Positions 370 to 50,080 of a stretch of 50,498 bases of DNA are shown here, piece after piece. Made by a program: the position numbers and the translations under genes. How positions within the stretch are numbered: the stretch's first letter is position 1; every line of letters begins with the position of its first letter. Source of the stretch: Fibrobacter sp. (lineage in GTDB: Bacteria > Fibrobacterota > Fibrobacteria > Fibrobacterales > Fibrobacteraceae); the NCBI RefSeq assembly GCF_017551775.1, contig NZ_JAFZKX010000051.1:1-50498 (forward strand), in the 5' to 3' direction. The notes under the pieces were generated by a model. The model was not told the origin of the DNA. It did no database searches and saw nothing but the letters and a program-made list of their open reading frames with translations.

Positions 370-2253
370 TTAGTGCACTTCGGAGAGGTTGTAACCCAGG
401 TGCACACGGCCACCGTTGTTATTGTATCTCCTAATCTCAATTTTCAGCCTACCCGTATTGCTCTTCGTCGTAAAATCGACCAGTTCGAACGCATTCGGAG
501 TCGACATGGACGAAGCCACCTGAGTCCAGGAATTGCTGCCAGCAGGAGCTTCATAGACAATCAAGTCAAGATCAAACGGAAGCCTACCGTTTGCAAGAAC
601 AAAGGAACCACTAACCAGCCAAGAAATGGCAGAACGATACCTCTGATTCGGCTTGACGCCTTCTTCATAGAATTCAATCTTATTAGAATTGAAGAAGTCT
701 CCGTTATTGCCGGCCCAGTAACGAGAACGGTTGTAGTTATGCATTGCTCTTGCATCAGGAACAGCATTAGCAACAGCAGCCCCAACATGGTCTACAGCAT
801 CAACCTTATTATCTGGATCATGCGTTGCAGCATCGGTAATCGGAGTAATACTAGAGGTCAGCAACAACGCCTTGACAACTTCCGGATGCCACTTGTAGAA
901 CGGGAATGTTTTCATAAGCAATGCTACAGAACCAGCAGTGTACGCCGCAGCAGAAGCCGTTTGCATAGCATATGGCTTAAGAACTTCTGTTCGGTTATCC
1001 TTTTGTATTGATTTGACAGCCGCATTCGGGAAAAGCAAATCAGAGTAATTCGCGATTTCCGGCTTTATCATTTTGAAGGATGTAACAGGCAGCTTGGGAT
1101 TCGTTACACTAGACGAATAATGATACGTCAAGTTGTTATGCACAGCACCAACAGTAATTACGTTTGCCGCCATGCCAGCATAATTAATCGAAGATCCCGT
1201 ACGATAATTAAGATCACCTGCGGAAGCAATTTCGACAGTTCTTGTATCATAGACGAAATCATCAATATACGCACTAGTTTGGTTGTAAGTGGTCTTGTAG
1301 TCATCACCCACAGCGAAACTCACCGTACCAACATAGATTTGAGGATTCTCAGTATATCCACTGACTGGGAGAGCCAAATTCACGTTAGACGTATTATCGC
1401 ACCATCTATCATAGACATAGATTTTCGACTTCGAGGCCAGCGCATTAATAGTCCGAATCGTCTTCGAAGTATTAACAACCTGTGCCGCTGTCGGAGCATG
1501 ACAGCTAGCCTTAATCACATACTGAGCCGCAGGAACGACATTCACCTTCGTGTTAAGACCAACGCCATTTTCCGTAACGGCAATACCAATATCCTTGCCC
1601 GGGTTACCCGGCCTGATAAAGTAATTATACAGGTTCGAATTGATGGCGACATTCGTATATTTCCAGTAATTAATCATCTCATACTTAGGATCAAGATAAC
1701 CATGTGAATTACGATAATTCGCATCAACAACATCGTTCACTTGGCAGGTTTCCTGCCCAGAGCATGCATTAGAAGCATTAGCCACATTATATAGGTTTTC
1801 GTTCACGGTATTGTTATACGCCACATTGTGTGCATTTATGTACGCTCCTCTAGGGCCATACCAGAAATCTTCATTTTCAGCAGCATTTGCTAAAGCAATA
1901 TACTGGCTTTCTGTATTTACAACTGCACCATCATAAGTATACTTTTTCTGCATCGTGACGCCGCCGTTGCTATTGGCGTAGCCCCAATATTCAAAAGAAC
2001 CGGTATGAGGAGTAACTGTTGCCGGATTTCCGTCTGCTTGTCTCATCAAAGCATTAGGCCCATAGCTCTTTTCACTCTTCAGATCAGCCTTCTGGCTAAC
2101 CTGCTTCTTAACGTCCTTCACATAAGCCTTCGGCGTATTGCGCACGGAGGAAATATGACGGCCGAGAACGTCTGCTTTTGCAGTTTCTTCAGCAGCCTGG
2201 GCGCCAACAGCAAATGCAGCGCAAAGGAGTAAGGTGGAATATTTCTTTTTCAT
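370..2253 (-). CDS. Secreted subtilase-fold (S8-like) protein without catalytic Ser; probable pseudoprotease
   Basis: A 627-residue exported protein. The ATG at 2253 is preferred because AGGAG lies 5 bases upstream and MKKKYSTLLLCAAFAVGAQA is a clean signal peptide. The core resembles the subtilase fold: DIGIAVTENGV where the Asp strand belongs, AANVITVGAV, KPEIANYS, and QTASAAAYTAG in place of GTSxAxPxxAG, followed by HPEVVKALLLTSS. Ala433 occupies the serine position. The oxyanion Asn appears to be Asp (SAGD), and the first Asp appears to be Glu. The C-terminal part (FDLDLIVYE, then NAFELVDF) resembles the beta-sandwich of KP-43-type subtilases. It is a distant paralogue of the proteins at 44982-46820 and 47107-49074, sharing LLGR-type N-termini and the RYWxG motif. 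The fold is inferred from motif order; its ligand is unknown. Confidence 0.65.
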   Translation of the reverse strand: MKKKYSTLLLCAAFAVGAQAAEETAKADVLGRHISSVRNTPKAYVKDVKKQVSQKADLKSEKSYGPNALMRQADGNPATVTPHTGSFEYWGYANSNGGVTMQKKYTYDGAVVNTESQYIALANAAENEDFWYGPRGAYINAHNVAYNNTVNENLYNVANASNACSGQETCQVNDVVDANYRNSHGYLDPKYEMINYWKYTNVAINSNLYNYFIRPGNPGKDIGIAVTENGVGLNTKVNVVPAAQYVIKASCHAPTAAQVVNTSKTIRTINALASKSKIYVYDRWCDNTSNVNLALPVSGYTENPQIYVGTVSFAVGDDYKTTYNQTSAYIDDFVYDTRTVEIASAGDLNYRTGSSINYAGMAANVITVGAVHNNLTYHYSSSVTNPKLPVTSFKMIKPEIANYSDLLFPNAAVKSIQKDNRTEVLKPYAMQTASAAAYTAGSVALLMKTFPFYKWHPEVVKALLLTSSITPITDAATHDPDNKVDAVDHVGAAVANAVPDARAMHNYNRSRYWAGNNGDFFNSNKIEFYEEGVKPNQRYRSAISWLVSGSFVLANGRLPFDLDLIVYEAPAGSNSWTQVASSMSTPNAFELVDFTTKSNTGRLKIEIRRYNNNGGRVHLGYNLSEVH

Positions 2254-2323
2254 TTTTTCTCCTATTTGGATACATACAATCTTTAGAATCAACACATTCG
2301 TGAACTAACTCAAGATTGCCACT

Positions 2324-2354
2324 CAAATTTATCCAAATTTTTTTAATTTATCAA
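2324..2354 (-). promoter_or_regulatory. Bacteroidetes-type promoter for the first subtilase-like gene
   Basis: The minus strand has TTG, 20 bases, then TAAATTTG (2331-2324), matching the -33 TTTG / -7 TAnnTTTG pattern. The leader would be about 65 bases and contains the AGGAG site at 2259-2263. Confidence 0.5.
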
Positions 2355-2427
2355 CAAAACATTAAATAAATTAATCTTACAAAATAATTAAAAAACGGGT
2401 GTGTATAAACAACATTCAAACATATGC

Positions 2428-2451
2428 CATACAAATTTCATACAAATTTGT
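2428..2451. repeat. Tandem 11-base direct repeat upstream of the antitoxin gene
   Basis: CATACAAATTT occurs twice head to tail (2428-2438, 2439-2449), and the second copy runs into the palindrome ACAAATTTGT (2442-2451). The gene-free stretch 2254-2576 is AT-rich and otherwise holds only the promoter of the minus-strand gene. The repeat could be an operator for the ribbon-helix-helix protein encoded downstream, but it lies about 126 bases from that start codon. Confidence 0.35.
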
Positions 2452-2576
2452 GTGTATTACAAGGTAATTATCTTTTCACTATTTGTGATAAAAAAGTATC
2501 GCGAACCACTTGTTTTTTTCTTGTTTTTTATGCATATTTAAGACGTAAAACAATCATTTTTCACAGGAGAAAATTC

Positions 2577-2774
2577 ATGGCCAATTTAACGATTTCTTTA
2601 GACGACGAAGACAAAAAAAGCATCACAAAATTCTGCGATAGAATCGGGATTACAGTATCAGGTCTTTACAACGTTTTTACCAAGCAAGTACTTCGCGAAG
2701 GGCGCATTCCATTCGAAATTGGAGTAGAAGTTCACAACCATATTGCCGTAAACGAGCTAAACGAAAGACCATAA
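2577..2774 (+). CDS. DinJ/RelB-family antitoxin, no adjacent toxin
   Basis: A 65-residue protein that reads MANLTISLDDEDKK at the N-terminus, the beta strand of a ribbon-helix-helix DNA-binding domain, then LGITVSGLYNVF-like helices (here IGITVSGLYNVFTKQV) and REGRIPFEI, the hallmark of the RelB/DinJ family. The ATG at 2577 has AGGAG seven bases upstream. Such antitoxins usually precede a RelE/YafQ toxin; here a strong terminator follows within 30 bases and the next gene is a nitroreductase on the other strand, so it stands alone. It could be a remnant, a trans-acting antitoxin or a stand-alone regulator. Family assignment is good; the function of an orphan copy is not known. Confidence 0.8.
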   Translation: MANLTISLDDEDKKSITKFCDRIGITVSGLYNVFTKQVLREGRIPFEIGVEVHNHIAVNELNERP

Positions 2775-2800
2775 AAAAACATCAAAAAGAGCATATAGCA

Positions 2801-2840
2801 AAACGCTCCAGCGACTAACCGCTGAAGCGTTTTTTCTTTT
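2801..2840 (+). terminator. Terminator between antitoxin and nitroreductase genes
   Basis: AACGCT-C-CAGC pairs with GCTG-A-AGCGTT around a short loop and is followed by TTTTTTCTTTT. It lies between two convergent genes and may also work, more weakly, for the minus strand. Confidence 0.85.
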
Positions 2841-2856
2841 AAAAATTTGGATTTCT

Positions 2857-3378
2857 TTATACTTCGCAGGCGAATTCTTCCATGCTCTTGCGCACCGGGT
2901 GCCTCGGCGAGGGGCCGCCGTCCGTCGGGTCGGCATAGCCGATATCCAAGAGACATGCGAGTTTCAAGTTATCCGGAAAATCAAACGCACTCTCGATGTA
3001 GGAGGCGTTGAATCCGCGTGCCCAAAGAGTCGCAAGCCCGAGGTCAGTCGCCTGCATCATCATCGAAGTGGTGACGATGCTAGCATCCATCACGCCACTA
3101 TTGAAGTTGTCATTGTACTTTTCGGCGGTATAGCAGTTGGGCTCGTCGTAGCAGACCATGAGCACCACCGGGGCGTTGTAAGCCATGCGGGTAATGCCGC
3201 GGATCTTTTCGAGCGCTTCGGGCGACTTGATGACCTTCACGGTCACGGGCTGCGCATTGATGGCGGTCGGCGAAATGCGGCCAGCCTCGAGTACCTGCGC
3301 GAGTTTTTCGGGTTCTACCGCCTTATCAGTGAAGGCTCGGCAGCTGTAGCGGTTTTTCGCAAGTTCTATAAACGACAT
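2857..3378 (-). CDS. Nitroreductase-family FMN oxidoreductase
   Basis: A 173-residue protein of the nitroreductase fold. NRYSCRAFTDKAV near the N-terminus is the usual FMN-phosphate-binding Arg-Ser/Cys-Arg signature. AGRISPTAINAQPVTVKVI is the conserved SPTAxNxQP segment, and the DASIVTTSMMMQATDLGLATLW stretch is the family core helix, followed by LACLLDIGYADP. The length is typical of the small single-domain members. It probably reduces quinones, flavins or nitro compounds with NAD(P)H in the cytoplasm; the real substrate cannot be read from sequence. AAGGAG lies seven bases before the ATG. It is divergent from metG, with a 50-base shared upstream region. Confidence 0.85.
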   Translation of the reverse strand: MSFIELAKNRYSCRAFTDKAVEPEKLAQVLEAGRISPTAINAQPVTVKVIKSPEALEKIRGITRMAYNAPVVLMVCYDEPNCYTAEKYNDNFNSGVMDASIVTTSMMMQATDLGLATLWARGFNASYIESAFDFPDNLKLACLLDIGYADPTDGGPSPRHPVRKSMEEFACEV

Positions 3379-13817: not shown

Positions 13818-14230
13818 CTGCGTTCCTACTTTATTTTAGCGCCTTTCGAGCAACCCTAGTTTAAAGATTTTTAGGCAAATATAACAAAGCATTCCTCTCG
13901 TTTCGCAGGGGAAAAGCGTTCATAGAGTCTGTAAATCGATTCAATCCCCCAAACGGCCCCTACAACGTCGCTTCATTAAAAAAGGTATTAAAAGATTCAC
14001 CCATCATGCCCAGAGTGTAAATTTCGTCTTTACATAAATAAATCACGTGTCGTCATTCACATTCACAAGCATTACAACATTGTACAAAGCGCTTTAAACC
14101 AGCATACACAAACCACACATCATGAGTTTGTTAAAAATCTTGTTAATTTATTCCCATAAAAATTACTTTACACAAACACAAAATAACTTATATTTGCGGT
14201 CCATCACAACCATAAAAAAAAGGATTACAA
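13818..14230. other. Gene-free divergent region between thiS and a secreted-protein gene
   Basis: This AT-rich stretch of 413 bases has no credible reading frame. Near the right end TATATTTG (14189-14196), preceded by TTTA 18 bases upstream, is a good -7 type promoter for the gene at 14231, and AAGGA at 14220-14224 is its ribosome-binding site. No riboswitch, tRNA or terminator was recognised. Confidence 0.6.
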
Positions 14231-15271
14231 ATGAATAAAAAGATCATTCTATCAGCACTACTAGTGTTAGGAATCTCCTCAAGTTTTGCAGTACCCCATC
14301 CAAGAATAGGCGTCATCTCAGAAAAGTGTTCAGGATCTGGCGACAATCAAAAAAACGGAGTTTTCATCGCACTTGACACAGAAAACAGCAATGACAAATC
14401 AGAAGTTATAACCAACTTAACTACAATTAGTCACATTTATTATACTAGTGGACATATGATTTTCCGTTATTGCGCAATCAATCTTTTAGAAGACGCAATG
14501 CCTAAAACAAAATACGACTACATTGTTCTTCAACTAGACCAAAAATGTCCAAGCGGGACATATCCGTTTACACGTCATCATGACACTCAAGACGGCGGAA
14601 AAAATTATAATATCGGAGCTTTATTATGGCCCAGCGTCATTAACGAAAGTACTGCAGATTTGAAATACTGTTTCGTACCCAAAGACAGCAAGTCGAAACT
14701 TTCTCATCCGTTTGAAAATTACCCCTCCTCAGAAGTTCCTTCCCAATACGGAGTTTTCGCAAACCCTTTTCACATCACTCATGCCATAAACACCCTTTAT
14801 TACTATGTCATTCACCTCGATGAAGAAGACTCCAATAACGGCACCAAATTTATTTGGGGAAAAGACATAGAAAAGAACACTGCCATCCAAAATCGCATTC
14901 AGAAAATAATTTATGGAGAGGACAATACATATTACCTAGCAACATTGTGGCCAGCTCCAACGCAGAATGCGGCTAAATCGGCAAACGCAAAAAATGTCGA
15001 TACGCCCAAAGTTGAACTCAAGCCGGCTTCCGCAGAAATCAAGAGCATCGATTACACCGCTATCGTCTTCGAACTCAAATCTGCCGGCAGCGCAAAGATT
15101 TCCATCAAGAATCTCAATGGTACCGAAGTCGCCAAGTTCAACGAACAGAACCTTGATGCCGGCATCCATACCCTCAATTGGGATTCTGGAATCATGATGC
15201 CTCGCGGCCGCTACATCGTGACCATTCAGCACAATGGTTCTGTTAAAGCAAAGAGCATCATACTGAAGTAA
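14231..15271 (+). CDS. Secreted protein with FlgD/T9SS-like C-terminal domain
   Basis: A 346-residue exported protein. MNKKIILSALLVLGISSSFA is a signal peptide, and AAGGA precedes the ATG by about six bases. Residues 20-245 match no family I recognise; they contain several Cys and aromatic residues (HIYYTSGHMIFRYC, YDYIVLQLDQKC). Residues about 260-346 form a beta-sandwich tail (KISIKNLNGTEVAKF, GIHTLNWDSGIMMPRGRYIVTI) like FlgD Ig-like or type IX secretion C-terminal domains, so surface delivery is likely. The first 720 bases are clearly AT-rich while the tail from about 14960 uses GC-rich codons like the genome core, suggesting that an acquired domain was joined to a native sorting tail. 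Confidence 0.7.
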   Translation: MNKKIILSALLVLGISSSFAVPHPRIGVISEKCSGSGDNQKNGVFIALDTENSNDKSEVITNLTTISHIYYTSGHMIFRYCAINLLEDAMPKTKYDYIVLQLDQKCPSGTYPFTRHHDTQDGGKNYNIGALLWPSVINESTADLKYCFVPKDSKSKLSHPFENYPSSEVPSQYGVFANPFHITHAINTLYYYVIHLDEEDSNNGTKFIWGKDIEKNTAIQNRIQKIIYGEDNTYYLATLWPAPTQNAAKSANAKNVDTPKVELKPASAEIKSIDYTAIVFELKSAGSAKISIKNLNGTEVAKFNEQNLDAGIHTLNWDSGIMMPRGRYIVTIQHNGSVKAKSIILK

Positions 15272-44981: not shown

Positions 44982-46820
44982 CTAATTTCCGTACCGGCCA
45001 GAAATATTCAAGCCCAAAACAACTTGACCATAATTTTCACTCGTAGGATCATCAGACTTCAACACGATTTTAAACACAAGATATGAATATGGCGAAGAAA
45101 TCGCGACTTGTTCATACGCATTAACTAAAGAGGTGCTCGATGCTACCAGTGTACCCGGATTAGAGAAATTAAAATTCACACCACAGGGATTATTTGTCAA
45201 CATAATACTAGGATCGGCAAGGCACGAATAACTACTATTATCGCTACCATAGACATACAAGTCAAAATTCTGAGGAATTTTTCCGGCTCTTGCAATATCG
45301 TTACCACTGCTAAGCCATGAAATTGCAGCACGAACCGACCGGCCACTCGACCAACCCAAATTGTGTACAACAAACCAAATTTCATGCTGATTGTTCACGG
45401 TACGCGTTTTCAACTTGGTTATATCGCCATTCCAATAACGAGAATCATAATAATGCCTATTTTGATCACTGGTATTGTCAAAAACCAAGTAATCATACGT
45501 AGGATACCATGTTACCGTGGACAGAAGCATCGCTTTCACGACTTCAGGGTGCCAGCGGTAGAACGGGTTGGTAGCCAACAGATTCGAGACCATACCCGCC
45601 GTATATGCGGCTGACACTTCCGTTCCATCATAAAATGGCTGATACGAATAAGTATTATTACCATAATTATAAGTTCTCGCATACTCCACATAGTTATCAT
45701 CTTTACTATAAAGATGCGTAAAATTCTTTACTTCCGGTTTCGCAAAACCTTGATTTTCAGCACGGTAGGACGAATAAGCGGGGGTCGACATATACGACGG
45801 ATCAATTCCGCCTACGGCAATGGCATTCGCCGCATGCGCCATAGAATTCAACTGGCCGCCATTCGATCCATAATTGCCAACAGGGACAAATTCGAGTGTA
45901 CGATATTGATAGATATAGTTGTCCAGCGACTTTGCAAGCGAACTATAACTAGATGCTCGAGCGATTCTGTCATTTCGAACGCCCATATAGACTTGGGGCT
46001 GTTGACCAGCCGGATTATTCGGGTGGTCTTTTCCCACGTAAGGAATAGAATATCTAGAGGTTCCACTCACTAAGCGAAATGTTCTAGAAGCTTTCATTTC
46101 ATAACCAGGAGCTGGATTAAATGATTCACTGGTATTCGTTCTAACATATCTGACGGGGATTCCGTTTCGAAGTCGTACGGGAAGCGCTTCATTACCCATA
46201 AACACGCCAACATACGAGGCTCTACTCGAGAACCAATTTGAAACCAAATCCGCCTGCGAATAACCAACGTCCCCAAGTACAGTATAAAAATCTTTATATT
46301 GAATTGTTTGCCCTGACACATAGGGAGAATTCTGCATATAATTGCCATAATTGGGATAGTAGAATGTAACCCCACTCGCATTAGTCCATCCTGCGGTCTC
46401 ATAAGAGGGCGTAAAATAACGATCCTCATTTATAGGAATAAAATACTGATTCGAGAGATTTTTATAATCGTTCCAACTATACGTACAAAAATTTGCATTA
46501 TAGGCGAAACAATTATCCGAACTGCTCGCTGTATGCTTTCTAAAATAATACCGTTTAGACTCATGGTCTCGTACCGTGCTAAAAGCACCTTCAATAGCCT
46601 TGATACTATTAGGCATGCCCAACTTTTGCAAAGAATGCGCTTCCAAAGAAGGACTAACTTTCTGTTGCTCATCCTTTTGGGCCTTTGTGTAGTCAACATT
46701 CTTGTAAACCATCGGAGAGTTCATCGCGCTCCCCTTACGGCCCAAGAGGTCAAAGTTATTTGTAGCCGCACCGGCACCGATGCAACCGAGAGATAATGCA
46801 ATAGGAATTATTTTCTTCAT
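44982..46820 (-). CDS. Secreted subtilase-fold protein with Gly-Thr-Glu in place of Gly-Thr-Ser (tandem copy 1)
   Basis: A 612-residue exported protein; the start at ATG 46820 follows AAGGA by nine bases, and MKKIIPIALSLGCIGAGAA is the signal peptide. Subtilase-like blocks: FVPVGNYG (the oxyanion Asn loop, AGN type), AANAIAVGGIDP, KPEVKNF, then YDGTEVSAAYTAGMVSNLL, where Glu401 occupies the serine position, and HPEVVKAMLLSTV. The C-terminal beta-sandwich includes RAAISWLSSGND, NFDLYVYGSDNSSY and VVLGLNISGRYGN. The Asp- and His-bearing motifs cannot be found in normal form. It is highly similar to the next gene along the strand, at 47107-49074. Probably a binding or structural surface protein rather than an active peptidase. 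Confidence 0.7.
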   Translation of the reverse strand: MKKIIPIALSLGCIGAGAATNNFDLLGRKGSAMNSPMVYKNVDYTKAQKDEQQKVSPSLEAHSLQKLGMPNSIKAIEGAFSTVRDHESKRYYFRKHTASSSDNCFAYNANFCTYSWNDYKNLSNQYFIPINEDRYFTPSYETAGWTNASGVTFYYPNYGNYMQNSPYVSGQTIQYKDFYTVLGDVGYSQADLVSNWFSSRASYVGVFMGNEALPVRLRNGIPVRYVRTNTSESFNPAPGYEMKASRTFRLVSGTSRYSIPYVGKDHPNNPAGQQPQVYMGVRNDRIARASSYSSLAKSLDNYIYQYRTLEFVPVGNYGSNGGQLNSMAHAANAIAVGGIDPSYMSTPAYSSYRAENQGFAKPEVKNFTHLYSKDDNYVEYARTYNYGNNTYSYQPFYDGTEVSAAYTAGMVSNLLATNPFYRWHPEVVKAMLLSTVTWYPTYDYLVFDNTSDQNRHYYDSRYWNGDITKLKTRTVNNQHEIWFVVHNLGWSSGRSVRAAISWLSSGNDIARAGKIPQNFDLYVYGSDNSSYSCLADPSIMLTNNPCGVNFNFSNPGTLVASSTSLVNAYEQVAISSPYSYLVFKIVLKSDDPTSENYGQVVLGLNISGRYGN

Positions 46821-47054
46821 TTCCCCAATCCTTTTTTTGTAAGTGAGTAGCTTTAATATAATCATTTTTATTTTATATGCAACAAATAAAATAAACTTTT
46901 TTAGATAAATTCACCATAACACACATTCATCAATACATTGTATTACAATTCAACCTATTTGCAACACACAAAATCAACTAAACTCACTTTTTTAAACAAA
47001 TTAACTTACAATAAAACCTTCGCCACGTTTTCGGTTACTTCGCAGGAACCATAT

Positions 47055-47087
47055 AAAAAAAAACGGCCGGGAAAAAATTCCCGGCAG
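47055..47087 (-). terminator. Terminator of the third subtilase-like gene
   Basis: On the minus strand CCGGGAA-TTTT-TTCCCGG, then CCG and nine T's. The ACGGCCGGGAAAAA core matches the terminator of the neighbouring paralogue, so the 3' flank was duplicated too. Confidence 0.85.
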
Positions 47088-47106
47088 CTTTTTAAGATTA
47101 AGACTG

Positions 47107-49074
47107 TTAGTAGTATCTACGAGCGGAAAGGTTGAAACCCAAAACAACTTGGCCACGATTTTCGCTCTGAGCATCTTCACTATATAATTTAATTTTGAAT
47201 ACCAGATAACGATATGGCGTACTAAAGCTCTTTCTCTCATAGGCATTATTGCTACTTGTAGACGAACCAATAAACTCTCCTGGATTAGAAAAATTAAAAT
47301 TCACTGCATGACCATTGCATGACGGCGGATTCTTCAAATCAATATTAGGATCATTCAAGCAAGCGTAATCGCTATTGTCGCTACCATAGATTGTCAAGTC
47401 AAAATCCTGAGGAATTGCACCAGTTCTCCCAATATCATTTCCACTGCTAAGCCAAGATATAGCAGCAGTCGTCAAATGACCAGGCAGGCCTGCTCTACTA
47501 TAGCCCAAATTACTCGTAACAAACCAAATCTCATGTTTGCCATTCTCGGTACGTGTCTTCAACTTAGTAATATCTCCATTCCAATAACGGGAATAATAAT
47601 TAAAGTTATTAAAACCATTATCCGGATTCAAGTTATTAAAGACCAAGAAATCATACGCCGGTGCAGACGTTGCCCCATAACGATTCGGATACGAATTCAA
47701 GTTTGCCCCCTGCGATGAAAGAAGCAACGCTTTCACGACTTCAGGATGCCAACGATAAAACGGGTTGGTCGCCAACAGGTTCGAGACCATGCCCGCCGTA
47801 TATGCGGCAGCCATTTCCGTTCCATCATAAAACGGCGGGTAATCATAAGGATGCCCCCCATAAGTATAATGTCGCGTATATTCCACATGGTCACTTTCCA
47901 TATTGTAGGTATTAGTAAAATTGTATATTTCAGGTTTTTGCGAACCACCAGTATGAGTAACCGAGGACGTATAATTAGCCACATTCATAGAATACGGATC
48001 AATCGCGCCCACAGTAACGGCATTCGCAGAATGGCCTGAAAAAGACAACAGACCACCCTCTGCTCCGTAATTACCCGCAGGAACAAATTCCAGCGTGCGG
48101 TTGTCATAAATATAGTTGTCCAAAGTTTTTGCAGTCCATTCATAGTTAGCTGTTACAAGGTTTTTATCATTTCGCACACCCATATAGATTTGAGGAACGT
48201 GCGAAGCAGGATTAGACGGACTATTTCTACCCACATAAACAACAGAACGTCTAGAAGCATCCTTTACAAGGCCATAAGACCTTGCAGCCATAATTTCATA
48301 TTCAGGTACTGTAGGCGAAAACGAATCACGATTATTCGTTCTAACATATTGAACAGTCTTCCCTTCCGCAAGCTTTACAGGGACTGCACTTGCTTGCAAG
48401 AAAACGCCAACATACGAAGCACTTCCATCATACCAATCAGAGCCAATACTCCAAGGACCAACATTATTAGCGCCCGAATATTGACCACCCCTTTTTACTA
48501 CATCAAAATCTGTATACTGGATATTTTCGCCCGGCACATAGGGGGAACTTCGCCAAAGATAGAGATAGCTAGGATTCTCTTTTGAAAAACTAGACGCATT
48601 GCTCCAACCAGCAGTCACATAATTGGGTGAAACCGATTGTCTTTCGTCGATATCAATAAAGGCATCATTTGATGCCGTTCTATATTCAGGCCAGTTATAA
48701 ACGCAAAAATGCGTACTACTGCTATTGCTATAGCAATTTTCCGAGTTACTTGCGTAATGACGTCGGAAAAAGTAATGCGCATTAGATATATCCTGACCTC
48801 TTGCATTCCTATAGCTCCAACTCTGATTTGAAGTATAAGCACCTTCAATAGCCTTGATATCATCAGGCATTCCCATCTTTTGCAAAGAATGCGCTTCCAA
48901 AGAAGGACCAACTTTCTGTTGTTCATCCTTTTTGACCTTGGAGTAGTCCACATTCCTGTAGACCATCGGAGAGTTCATCTGGCTTCCCTTACGGCCCAAG
49001 AGGTCATAGTTACTTGTAGCTGCACCGGCACCAATGCAACCGAGAGTTAATGCGATAGGAATTATTTTATTCAT
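47107..49074 (-). CDS. Secreted subtilase-fold protein with Gly-Thr-Glu in place of Gly-Thr-Ser (tandem copy 2)
   Basis: A 655-residue paralogue of the protein at 44982-46820. MNKIIPIALTLGCIGAGAA is the signal peptide, followed by LLGRKGSQMNSPMVYRNVDY. Subtilase-like blocks: FVPAGNYGAEGG, SANAVTVGAIDP, KPEIYNF, YDGTEMAAAYTAGMVSNLL with Glu420 at the serine position, and HPEVVKALLLSSQ. The C-terminal domain has AAISWLSSGND, DFDLTIYGSDNSDY, two Cys in the acidic loop and VVLGFNLSARRYY. The same AAGGATTGGGGAA leader and upstream AT-rich block precede both copies. The exact retention of GTE in both, with the rest of the motif kept, suggests selection rather than decay. Confidence 0.7.
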   Translation of the reverse strand: MNKIIPIALTLGCIGAGAATSNYDLLGRKGSQMNSPMVYRNVDYSKVKKDEQQKVGPSLEAHSLQKMGMPDDIKAIEGAYTSNQSWSYRNARGQDISNAHYFFRRHYASNSENCYSNSSSTHFCVYNWPEYRTASNDAFIDIDERQSVSPNYVTAGWSNASSFSKENPSYLYLWRSSPYVPGENIQYTDFDVVKRGGQYSGANNVGPWSIGSDWYDGSASYVGVFLQASAVPVKLAEGKTVQYVRTNNRDSFSPTVPEYEIMAARSYGLVKDASRRSVVYVGRNSPSNPASHVPQIYMGVRNDKNLVTANYEWTAKTLDNYIYDNRTLEFVPAGNYGAEGGLLSFSGHSANAVTVGAIDPYSMNVANYTSSVTHTGGSQKPEIYNFTNTYNMESDHVEYTRHYTYGGHPYDYPPFYDGTEMAAAYTAGMVSNLLATNPFYRWHPEVVKALLLSSQGANLNSYPNRYGATSAPAYDFLVFNNLNPDNGFNNFNYYSRYWNGDITKLKTRTENGKHEIWFVTSNLGYSRAGLPGHLTTAAISWLSSGNDIGRTGAIPQDFDLTIYGSDNSDYACLNDPNIDLKNPPSCNGHAVNFNFSNPGEFIGSSTSSNNAYERKSFSTPYRYLVFKIKLYSEDAQSENRGQVVLGFNLSARRYY

Positions 49075-49378
49075 TTCCCCAATCCTTTTTGTATGTGAAA
49101 GAATAGGTTTAATATAATCTATTTTATTTTATATATAACAAACAAAATAAACTTTTTTTCAGATAAATTCATTTACATAAACATTCATAAAAACATTGCA
49201 ATACAATTGCATTTCATTAACAACACAACAAATTGCATCAAGTTTTTTCTGAACAACTAAAAACATTATAAAAAGGGCTTCCATTAAGGCTCATTTTTCG
49301 ATTTTTAGGCCAAAATCGCTACTTTTGGGGGCCAAAGATTCTCAAAGCATTGGCAAAAATTCTATTTTCGAGCCCACT
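49075..49378. other. Gene-free AT-rich upstream region
   Basis: It holds the leader and promoter region of the minus-strand gene at 47107-49074. The first roughly 110 bases are very similar to 46821-46930 before the sister copy, including TTTG followed 22 bases later by TATATTAA on the minus strand. A small hairpin CGATTTT-TAGGCC-AAAATCG lies at 49297-49316. No gene or RNA was recognised. Confidence 0.55.
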
Positions 49379-50047
49379 ATGATTTGTAAAAAATGCGGAA
49401 GGGAGTACGAAGACGACATGCTGAAGTGCCTGTGGTGCGACGCGCCTAACGACCACCATGTTGCGCCAGAACCCCCTTCAAGGCAGGATTTATCGGAAGT
49501 ATTGGATGTCCAGGCCCGAATCGATTCCGTCATCACCCGCCAGATGGAAAGGGCTTCCATTGAAACGGATACCTCAGAAGAAACAGAAAAGAAGATCGCC
49601 AAGCACCCCGCCGGAGACTTCATGTGGTGTGCCGCCATTTTAGGAGCCGGGGGACTGATTTCTGCAATAGTCGGGGCATCCCTTATAGCCTTCTTCCACA
49701 GAAAGGAAATCCGCAAGAACCTCGCCCTGACAAAATTCACCTCGGCCTACATTTCCTCCGTTACCGCACAATTCTTTATACTCAACGGCCTCGCCAAAAT
49801 CACAATGGATGCAATATCGATGCATCTGCATGGCGAAGTAGCCACAACACTCACAAAGGCCGTAACCTACGGACAGGGGGTCATCTTCCTTTTCCTATGC
49901 GGGTATACGGGAGCCTTTATCATCAAGAAGATTGCACCGGATTACAACCCCATCGAGTACAGAAAGGCTTCGGTCTGTGCAACGGTATCATCCATACCCG
50001 CTGTAATTCTATTATCCATTCTTACCTATTACCTTTTTTATACGTAA
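49379..50047 (+). CDS. Zinc-ribbon multi-pass membrane protein, unknown function
   Basis: A 222-residue protein from ATG 49379 (a TTG 18 codons upstream is less likely). MICKKCGREYEDDMLKCLWC is an N-terminal zinc ribbon (CxxC-x13-CxxC). A charged linker with many Glu/Lys follows (residues about 30-78), then four hydrophobic segments: WCAAILGAGGLISAIVGASLIAFF, FTSAYISSVTAQFFILNGLA, YGQGVIFLFLCGYTGAFII and SVCATVSSIPAVILLSILTYYLF. No family was recognised beyond the ribbon. It lies between the duplicated secreted-protein genes and guaA, with which it is co-directional (39-base gap). Confidence 0.7.
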   Translation: MICKKCGREYEDDMLKCLWCDAPNDHHVAPEPPSRQDLSEVLDVQARIDSVITRQMERASIETDTSEETEKKIAKHPAGDFMWCAAILGAGGLISAIVGASLIAFFHRKEIRKNLALTKFTSAYISSVTAQFFILNGLAKITMDAISMHLHGEVATTLTKAVTYGQGVIFLFLCGYTGAFIIKKIAPDYNPIEYRKASVCATVSSIPAVILLSILTYYLFYT

Positions 50048-50072: not shown

Positions 50073-50080
50073 TATCTTTG
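50073..50080 (+). promoter_or_regulatory. -7 box six bases before the guaA ATG
   Basis: TATCTTTG is an exact TAnnTTTG match; GGGG directly before the ATG might instead act as a weak ribosome site. Confidence 0.4.

Follow-up and report, generated by a model that had tools for sequence, protein, structure and literature searches.

The window analysed here, a stretch of 50,498 nucleotides from Fibrobacter sp. (assembly GCF_017551775.1, contig NZ_JAFZKX010000051.1), carries two neighbouring minus-strand genes whose open reading frames (44982-46865 and 47107-49074) were confirmed, and whose products are secreted close paralogues with 60 % identity at the protein level. Gene 1 most likely starts at the ATG at 46820 rather than at 46865, because an SD-like GGGGA lies upstream of that ATG and the signal peptide of the family begins there. 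Since a terminator-like hairpin lies between the genes, they are probably transcribed separately. The features of the pair are as follows.

44982..46820, minus strand: gene 1, a pseudo-subtilase gene, 612 aa from the likely ATG at 46820; its frame opens at 46865
47066..47085, minus strand: terminator-like hairpin between the two genes, 8 pairs and then a T-run
47107..49074, minus strand: gene 2, a pseudo-subtilase gene, 655 aa
47110..47634, minus strand: C-terminal beta domain of gene 2 (residues 481-655), which aligns with the C-terminal domain of KP-43
47635..48513, minus strand: subtilase-fold core of gene 2 (residues 188-480)
48514..48879, minus strand: prodomain-equivalent region of gene 2 (residues 66-187), its most variable part
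48925..49020, minus strand: N-terminal tail of gene 2 (residues 19-50, ATSNYDLLGRKGSQMNSPMVYRNVDYSKVKKD), the top-conserved segment of its clade

An earlier interpretation of this DNA, made without database searches (the sequence-only reading), had claimed a subtilase-like fold for both proteins, and structure prediction agrees for gene 2. The AlphaFold model of gene 2 (pLDDT 86, pTM 0.87; 67-sequence alignment) matches KP-43 (PDB 1wmd) at Z 24.6 and 3.1 Å over 359 residues, with model residues 190-651 lying on KP-43 residues 1-434, and matches SubHal (5fax) at Z 24.1; both are Bacillus S8 subtilases with the same core and C-terminal beta domain. An intact relative modelled in the same way (pLDDT 82) matches these structures at Z 34.4 and 34.1, respectively, and also aligns with the pro-forms of Tk-SP and subtilisin E, N-terminal region included. 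Homology is likewise evident in sequence comparisons: phmmer finds KP-43 from gene 2 (E 1.6e-4), a 17-member family profile finds it at 4.4e-9, and the clade to which genes 1 and 2 belong, termed the Glu clade below, matches its intact relatives profile to profile at E 3.6e-68. Although hmmscan of both proteins against Pfam and NCBIfam returned no family, this is a limit of sensitivity, because gene 2, in the genome search, as well as clade members and close paralogues score above the PF00082 cut-off. A single-sequence search of the PDB with gene 1 gave chance matches only, and its fold is taken to be that of gene 2, given their 60 % identity. By fold and sequence homology, therefore, the gene 2 protein belongs to the S8 subtilase fold superfamily, and its model follows KP-43 from end to end, through both the core and the C-terminal beta domain.

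Active-site columns were anchored by aligning a profile of intact relatives to subtilisin BPN', such that their Glu/Asp, His, Asn and Ser fall on Asp32, His64, Asn155 and Ser221. In single-sequence and profile searches alike, GTEVSAAYTAG of gene 1 (E416) and GTEMAAAYTAG of gene 2 (E420) align with GTSMATPIVAG of KP-43, an active protease. The motif frame GTExxAAYTAG noticed previously is thus placed at the GTS site, with Glu where KP-43 has its nucleophile. At the Asp32, His64, Asn155 and Ser221 columns, gene 2 has Ala228, Met262, Asn335 and Glu420, and gene 1 has Asn225, Lys258, Asn331 and Glu416 (numbered from the ATG at 46865). Neither protein retains any residue of the Asp/His/Ser triad of an active S8 peptidase, in keeping with the previous failure to find Asp and His motifs, whereas the oxyanion-hole Asn, also recognized then, is present in both, although its column is not fixed across the clade. 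The sequence-only reading had further stressed an identical replacement in two copies; Glu does occur in both, but as close paralogues they inherited it. The relevant positions, together with a third and divergent paralogue in the window, are these.

45618..45620, minus strand: codon GAA for Glu416 of gene 1, catalytic Ser column (BPN' Ser221)
47815..47817, minus strand: codon GAA for Glu420 of gene 2, catalytic Ser column (KP-43 Ser255, BPN' Ser221)
48070..48072, minus strand: Asn335 of gene 2, oxyanion Asn column (BPN' Asn155)
48280..48297, minus strand: Glu260 to Arg265 of gene 2, in place of the His motif; Arg265 occupies the BPN' His67 column
48289..48291, minus strand: Met262 of gene 2, catalytic His column (BPN' His64)
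48391..48393, minus strand: Ala228 of gene 2, catalytic Asp column (BPN' Asp32; Glu or Asp in intact relatives)
370..2295, minus strand: third, divergent paralogue, with Glu, Asn, Asp and Ala at the Asp32, His64, Asn155 and Ser221 columns

The paralogue at 370-2295 is dead by a different route, with an acid at the oxyanion position. Together with genes 1 and 2 and a tandem triple on another contig, it makes up the six family members of the genome. Among 168 genomes of the phylum, those of the same taxonomic family alone gave strong matches, and matches in the others were weak. Of the 48 loci from a pattern-limited scan across about 85,000 species genomes, all except three are in records named Fibrobacter; the genomes surveyed are mostly metagenome-assembled (MAGs), and the search beyond the Fibrobacteraceae was shallow, so Glu-type dead subtilases may exist in other groups too. 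Three members that closely resemble Fibrobacter ones (L075, L087 and L103) come from short rumen-MAG contigs whose bins are labelled Saccharibacteria, Paludibacteraceae and Bacteroidales, and these contigs are probably mis-binned.

Genes 1 and 2 fall in one Fibrobacter clade of 61 non-redundant rows (SH-aLRT 100), which has Glu at the Ser column in 54 rows and R, R, S, G, Q, M and P in the other seven; Glu is thus predominant, beyond what chance would give, but not fixed. The catalytic His is absent from all 61 rows. The site has been remodelled at three further positions: residue 260, two positions ahead of the former His, is Glu in 62 of 62 members; residue 265 (BPN' His67 column) is Arg or Lys in 56 of 62; and the Thr of the intact GTSxxT has become Ala423 in 61 of 62. 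Outside the clade, 48 relatives carry the complete E/D-H-N-S set, with Glu at the Asp32 column in 39 and Asp in nine. These 39 otherwise intact proteins (L019, L024, L042 and L092 among them) share the motif GVYFxExG and, judged by alignment, have an apparent Glu-His-Ser triad. A second, small Glu lineage (four rows, L018/L085/L093) sits among the intact members; the tree favours an independent origin of Glu there without proving it, a single origin being compatible with the data (AU p 0.17). Copy number can be high, as in MAG G144, which has 17 PF00082 matches, mostly dead by their active-site columns; of its roughly 17 subtilase-fold genes (L063, L064, L067, L070, L072, L080, L085, L086 and L088 among them), about two have an intact triad.

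Such large variation in copy number, along with patchy presence across the genus, is what decaying duplicates without function might produce. However, the frames are full length, dN/dS is about 0.2, the N-terminal tail is near-invariant, and the arrays occupy conserved chromosomal sites, so that decay can be set aside as highly improbable. The median pairwise dN/dS, computed by NG86 from non-independent pairs and hence descriptive, is 0.22 in the Glu clade versus 0.19 in intact relatives; because the two are alike, the Glu-clade proteins are regarded as maintained pseudoproteases. Paralogue arrays recur at the same chromosomal sites, e.g. adjoining guaA, with varying copy number, and these locations look like conserved sites that hold variable arrays. 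Glu-type genes lie beside guaA at L045, L046, L047, L051, L142, L145, L147, L150, L154 and L166 as well as at 50078 in the window, and further sites are near acetolactate synthase and fumarate hydratase genes. A search for conserved partner genes around the loci yielded none that pointed to a partner; shared neighbours, guaA and others, look like conserved chromosomal sites.

That genes 1 and 2 encode maintained pseudoproteases, i.e. protease homologues that have lost their catalytic residues and are kept by selection, is a firm conclusion. Computation shows the fold, the disappearance of all three catalytic residues, an ancestry shared with intact family members, purifying selection, and tandem expansion. 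A selected non-peptidase role, as suggested earlier, is well supported, since Glu also predominates across the clade and, judged by conservation, no Ser/His/Asp set has been relocated. Retention of the fold would permit peptidase activity through such a relocated triad, but H443, the only His conserved in at least 85 % of the Glu clade, is common to relatives with a normal triad, and the clade's other conserved Ser and Asp residues are shared with relatives or lie in the tail, D547 excepted; peptidase activity by this means is scarcely credible.

The replacement at the Ser column has a counterpart at the oxyanion column. Among pseudo members lacking Glu at Ser221, 12 of 15 have Asp or Glu at Asn155, whereas such an acid occurs in 3 of 60 members with Glu and in 0 of 48 intact ones (Fisher 7e-9, relatedness ignored). 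On the tree there are seven independent pairs, mostly five or six of them as expected and none opposite, and with correction for phylogeny the median p is 0.06 (range 0.03-0.12 over random pairings), which makes the exchange suggestive, the more cautiously so as it was noticed post hoc. Both columns lack an acid in one Gln member and one Met member, and both Arg420 members also have Asp at 262 and 335. The pattern suggests, from covariation between columns, that one carboxylate is needed in the dead oxyanion pocket. A bolder proposal is that a new catalytic centre has arisen from Glu420, possibly together with the invariant Glu260; it can draw on two invariant carboxylates, at the former Ser and beside the former His, and on the three base changes that separate Ser AGY (48 of 48 codons) from Glu GAR (66 of 66). 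Yet position 420 is R, S, G, Q, M or P in seven of the 61 clade rows, in which Glu260 is retained, and an acid that shifts between two columns suits electrostatics better than catalysis. Because some clade members are without the Glu, Glu-based chemistry is disfavoured and has very little probability; the unknown chemistry once offered as an option has likewise become less likely, since members with R, S, G or Q persist.

Outside the active site, conservation is highly uneven. Identity within the Glu clade is 77 % in the tail, 44 % in the core and 26 % in the prodomain-equivalent region. The tail, about 30 residues that follow the signal peptide, has only 29 % identity in intact members; it is of low confidence in the gene 2 model and is probably disordered. 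When the tail was sought as a general export tag in Fibrobacter, family members alone were found, apart from one weak and uninteresting match, and no other gene of the window's genome had it. Conservation of so flexible a segment suggests docking to a constant partner. The protein varies most in the region that corresponds to the prodomain of intact members; the LTxxE motif of that region, present in 22 of 48 intact members, is found in 0 of 62 of the Glu clade. Residue 13 of P0002, in the signal peptide, is Cys in 89 % of the Glu clade and rarely so among intact members. The Cys might belong to a lipoprotein signal, although its lipobox is a poor one and there is an AxA site after it.

The explanation judged best, and probably correct, is that both genes encode secreted dead subtilases of a Fibrobacteraceae family with the KP-43-type fold, which would work as extracellular binding or assembly modules. 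With no nucleophile, the prodomain would not be cleaved by the protein itself and would stay attached, as in CspC. A single carboxylate (Glu in column 221, or else Asp/Glu in column 155) would, to judge from the covariation, be kept in the former oxyanion pocket. It would sit where the oxyanion of a substrate goes, blocking catalysis, and would stabilize the site or bind a basic group of a ligand; that it fills or blocks the oxyanion site is a tentative reading of the alignment, with slightly less than an even chance. Outside the cell, the protein would be a binding or assembly module, with a variable face on the prodomain and the near-invariant tail as a shared docking element, a part of the explanation for which the odds are about level, and surface binding or display is a guess. 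An extension of the idea, speculative and improbable, is that the dead cleft is a socket. Its carboxylate would take a basic residue from the tail (DLLGRKGSKMNSPMVYK), either within one molecule or between neighbours, and through such pseudo-substrate docking the paralogues would build an extracellular polymer or coat.

The nearest functional precedent is in Clostridioides difficile, where the active CspB is under the control of two dead proteins, CspA and CspC (PMC6636752; PMC12880746), and the Fibrobacter proteins might by analogy switch or chaperone an active subtilase paralogue. Like CspC and CspA, they have a subtilisin-like fold, have lost triad residues and would have a prodomain that is not self-processed, and several Fibrobacter genomes, e.g. 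G004 and G034, hold both dead and intact kinds. However, the window's genome (98 % complete) has no intact triad among its six members and no further PF00082 match, and the single PF00082 protein of G029 (100 % complete) is of the Glu type. Since neither has an intact subtilase, whereas CspC works with its active sister CspB, regulation of a sister is disfavoured. There is also no conserved neighbour gene at the loci that points to a partner, and a regulatory role of this kind is unlikely overall, although a partner protease could conceivably come from another family. The proteins differ from CspC in other respects, too. CspC, with triad positions G485, T170 and D105 (PMC6636752), keeps the Asp and has Gly at Ser, whereas genes 1 and 2 have lost all three residues, with Glu replacing Ser; CspC also has an inserted jelly-roll domain. 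The Fibrobacter family has many copies. Compared with KP-43, the two proteins carry an attached N-terminal region and the conserved tail. PIMMS2 of Plasmodium, a surface subtilisin-like protein without HGT and GTS motifs, is another probable pseudoenzyme, but it is eukaryotic, its P. berghei version still has Asp, His and Ser, and the portion of that report drawn on here describes no Glu replacement (PMC5520436).

Few bacterial subtilase pseudoenzymes have been studied, and the literature found was mainly on the Csp proteins of clostridia; within open-access sources, nothing was found on Fibrobacter subtilisins or a Glu-type dead subtilase. The present family would offer a large natural bacterial set of dead subtilases that can be compared with intact relatives, from a genus whose members break down fibre in the rumen, and it combines near-uniform replacement of the nucleophile with an apparent compensating exchange at the oxyanion position. 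With such a set, the purpose for which selection keeps a dead protease fold can be tested directly. Elsewhere in the window, the open reading frame at 14231-15271 has a C-terminal stretch that resembles a T9SS C-terminal sorting domain, a domain that the pseudo-subtilases lack. AT-rich islands at 1001-3000, 14001-15000 and 45001-50000 (GC 0.37-0.43 versus about 0.55) overlap genes for secreted proteins.
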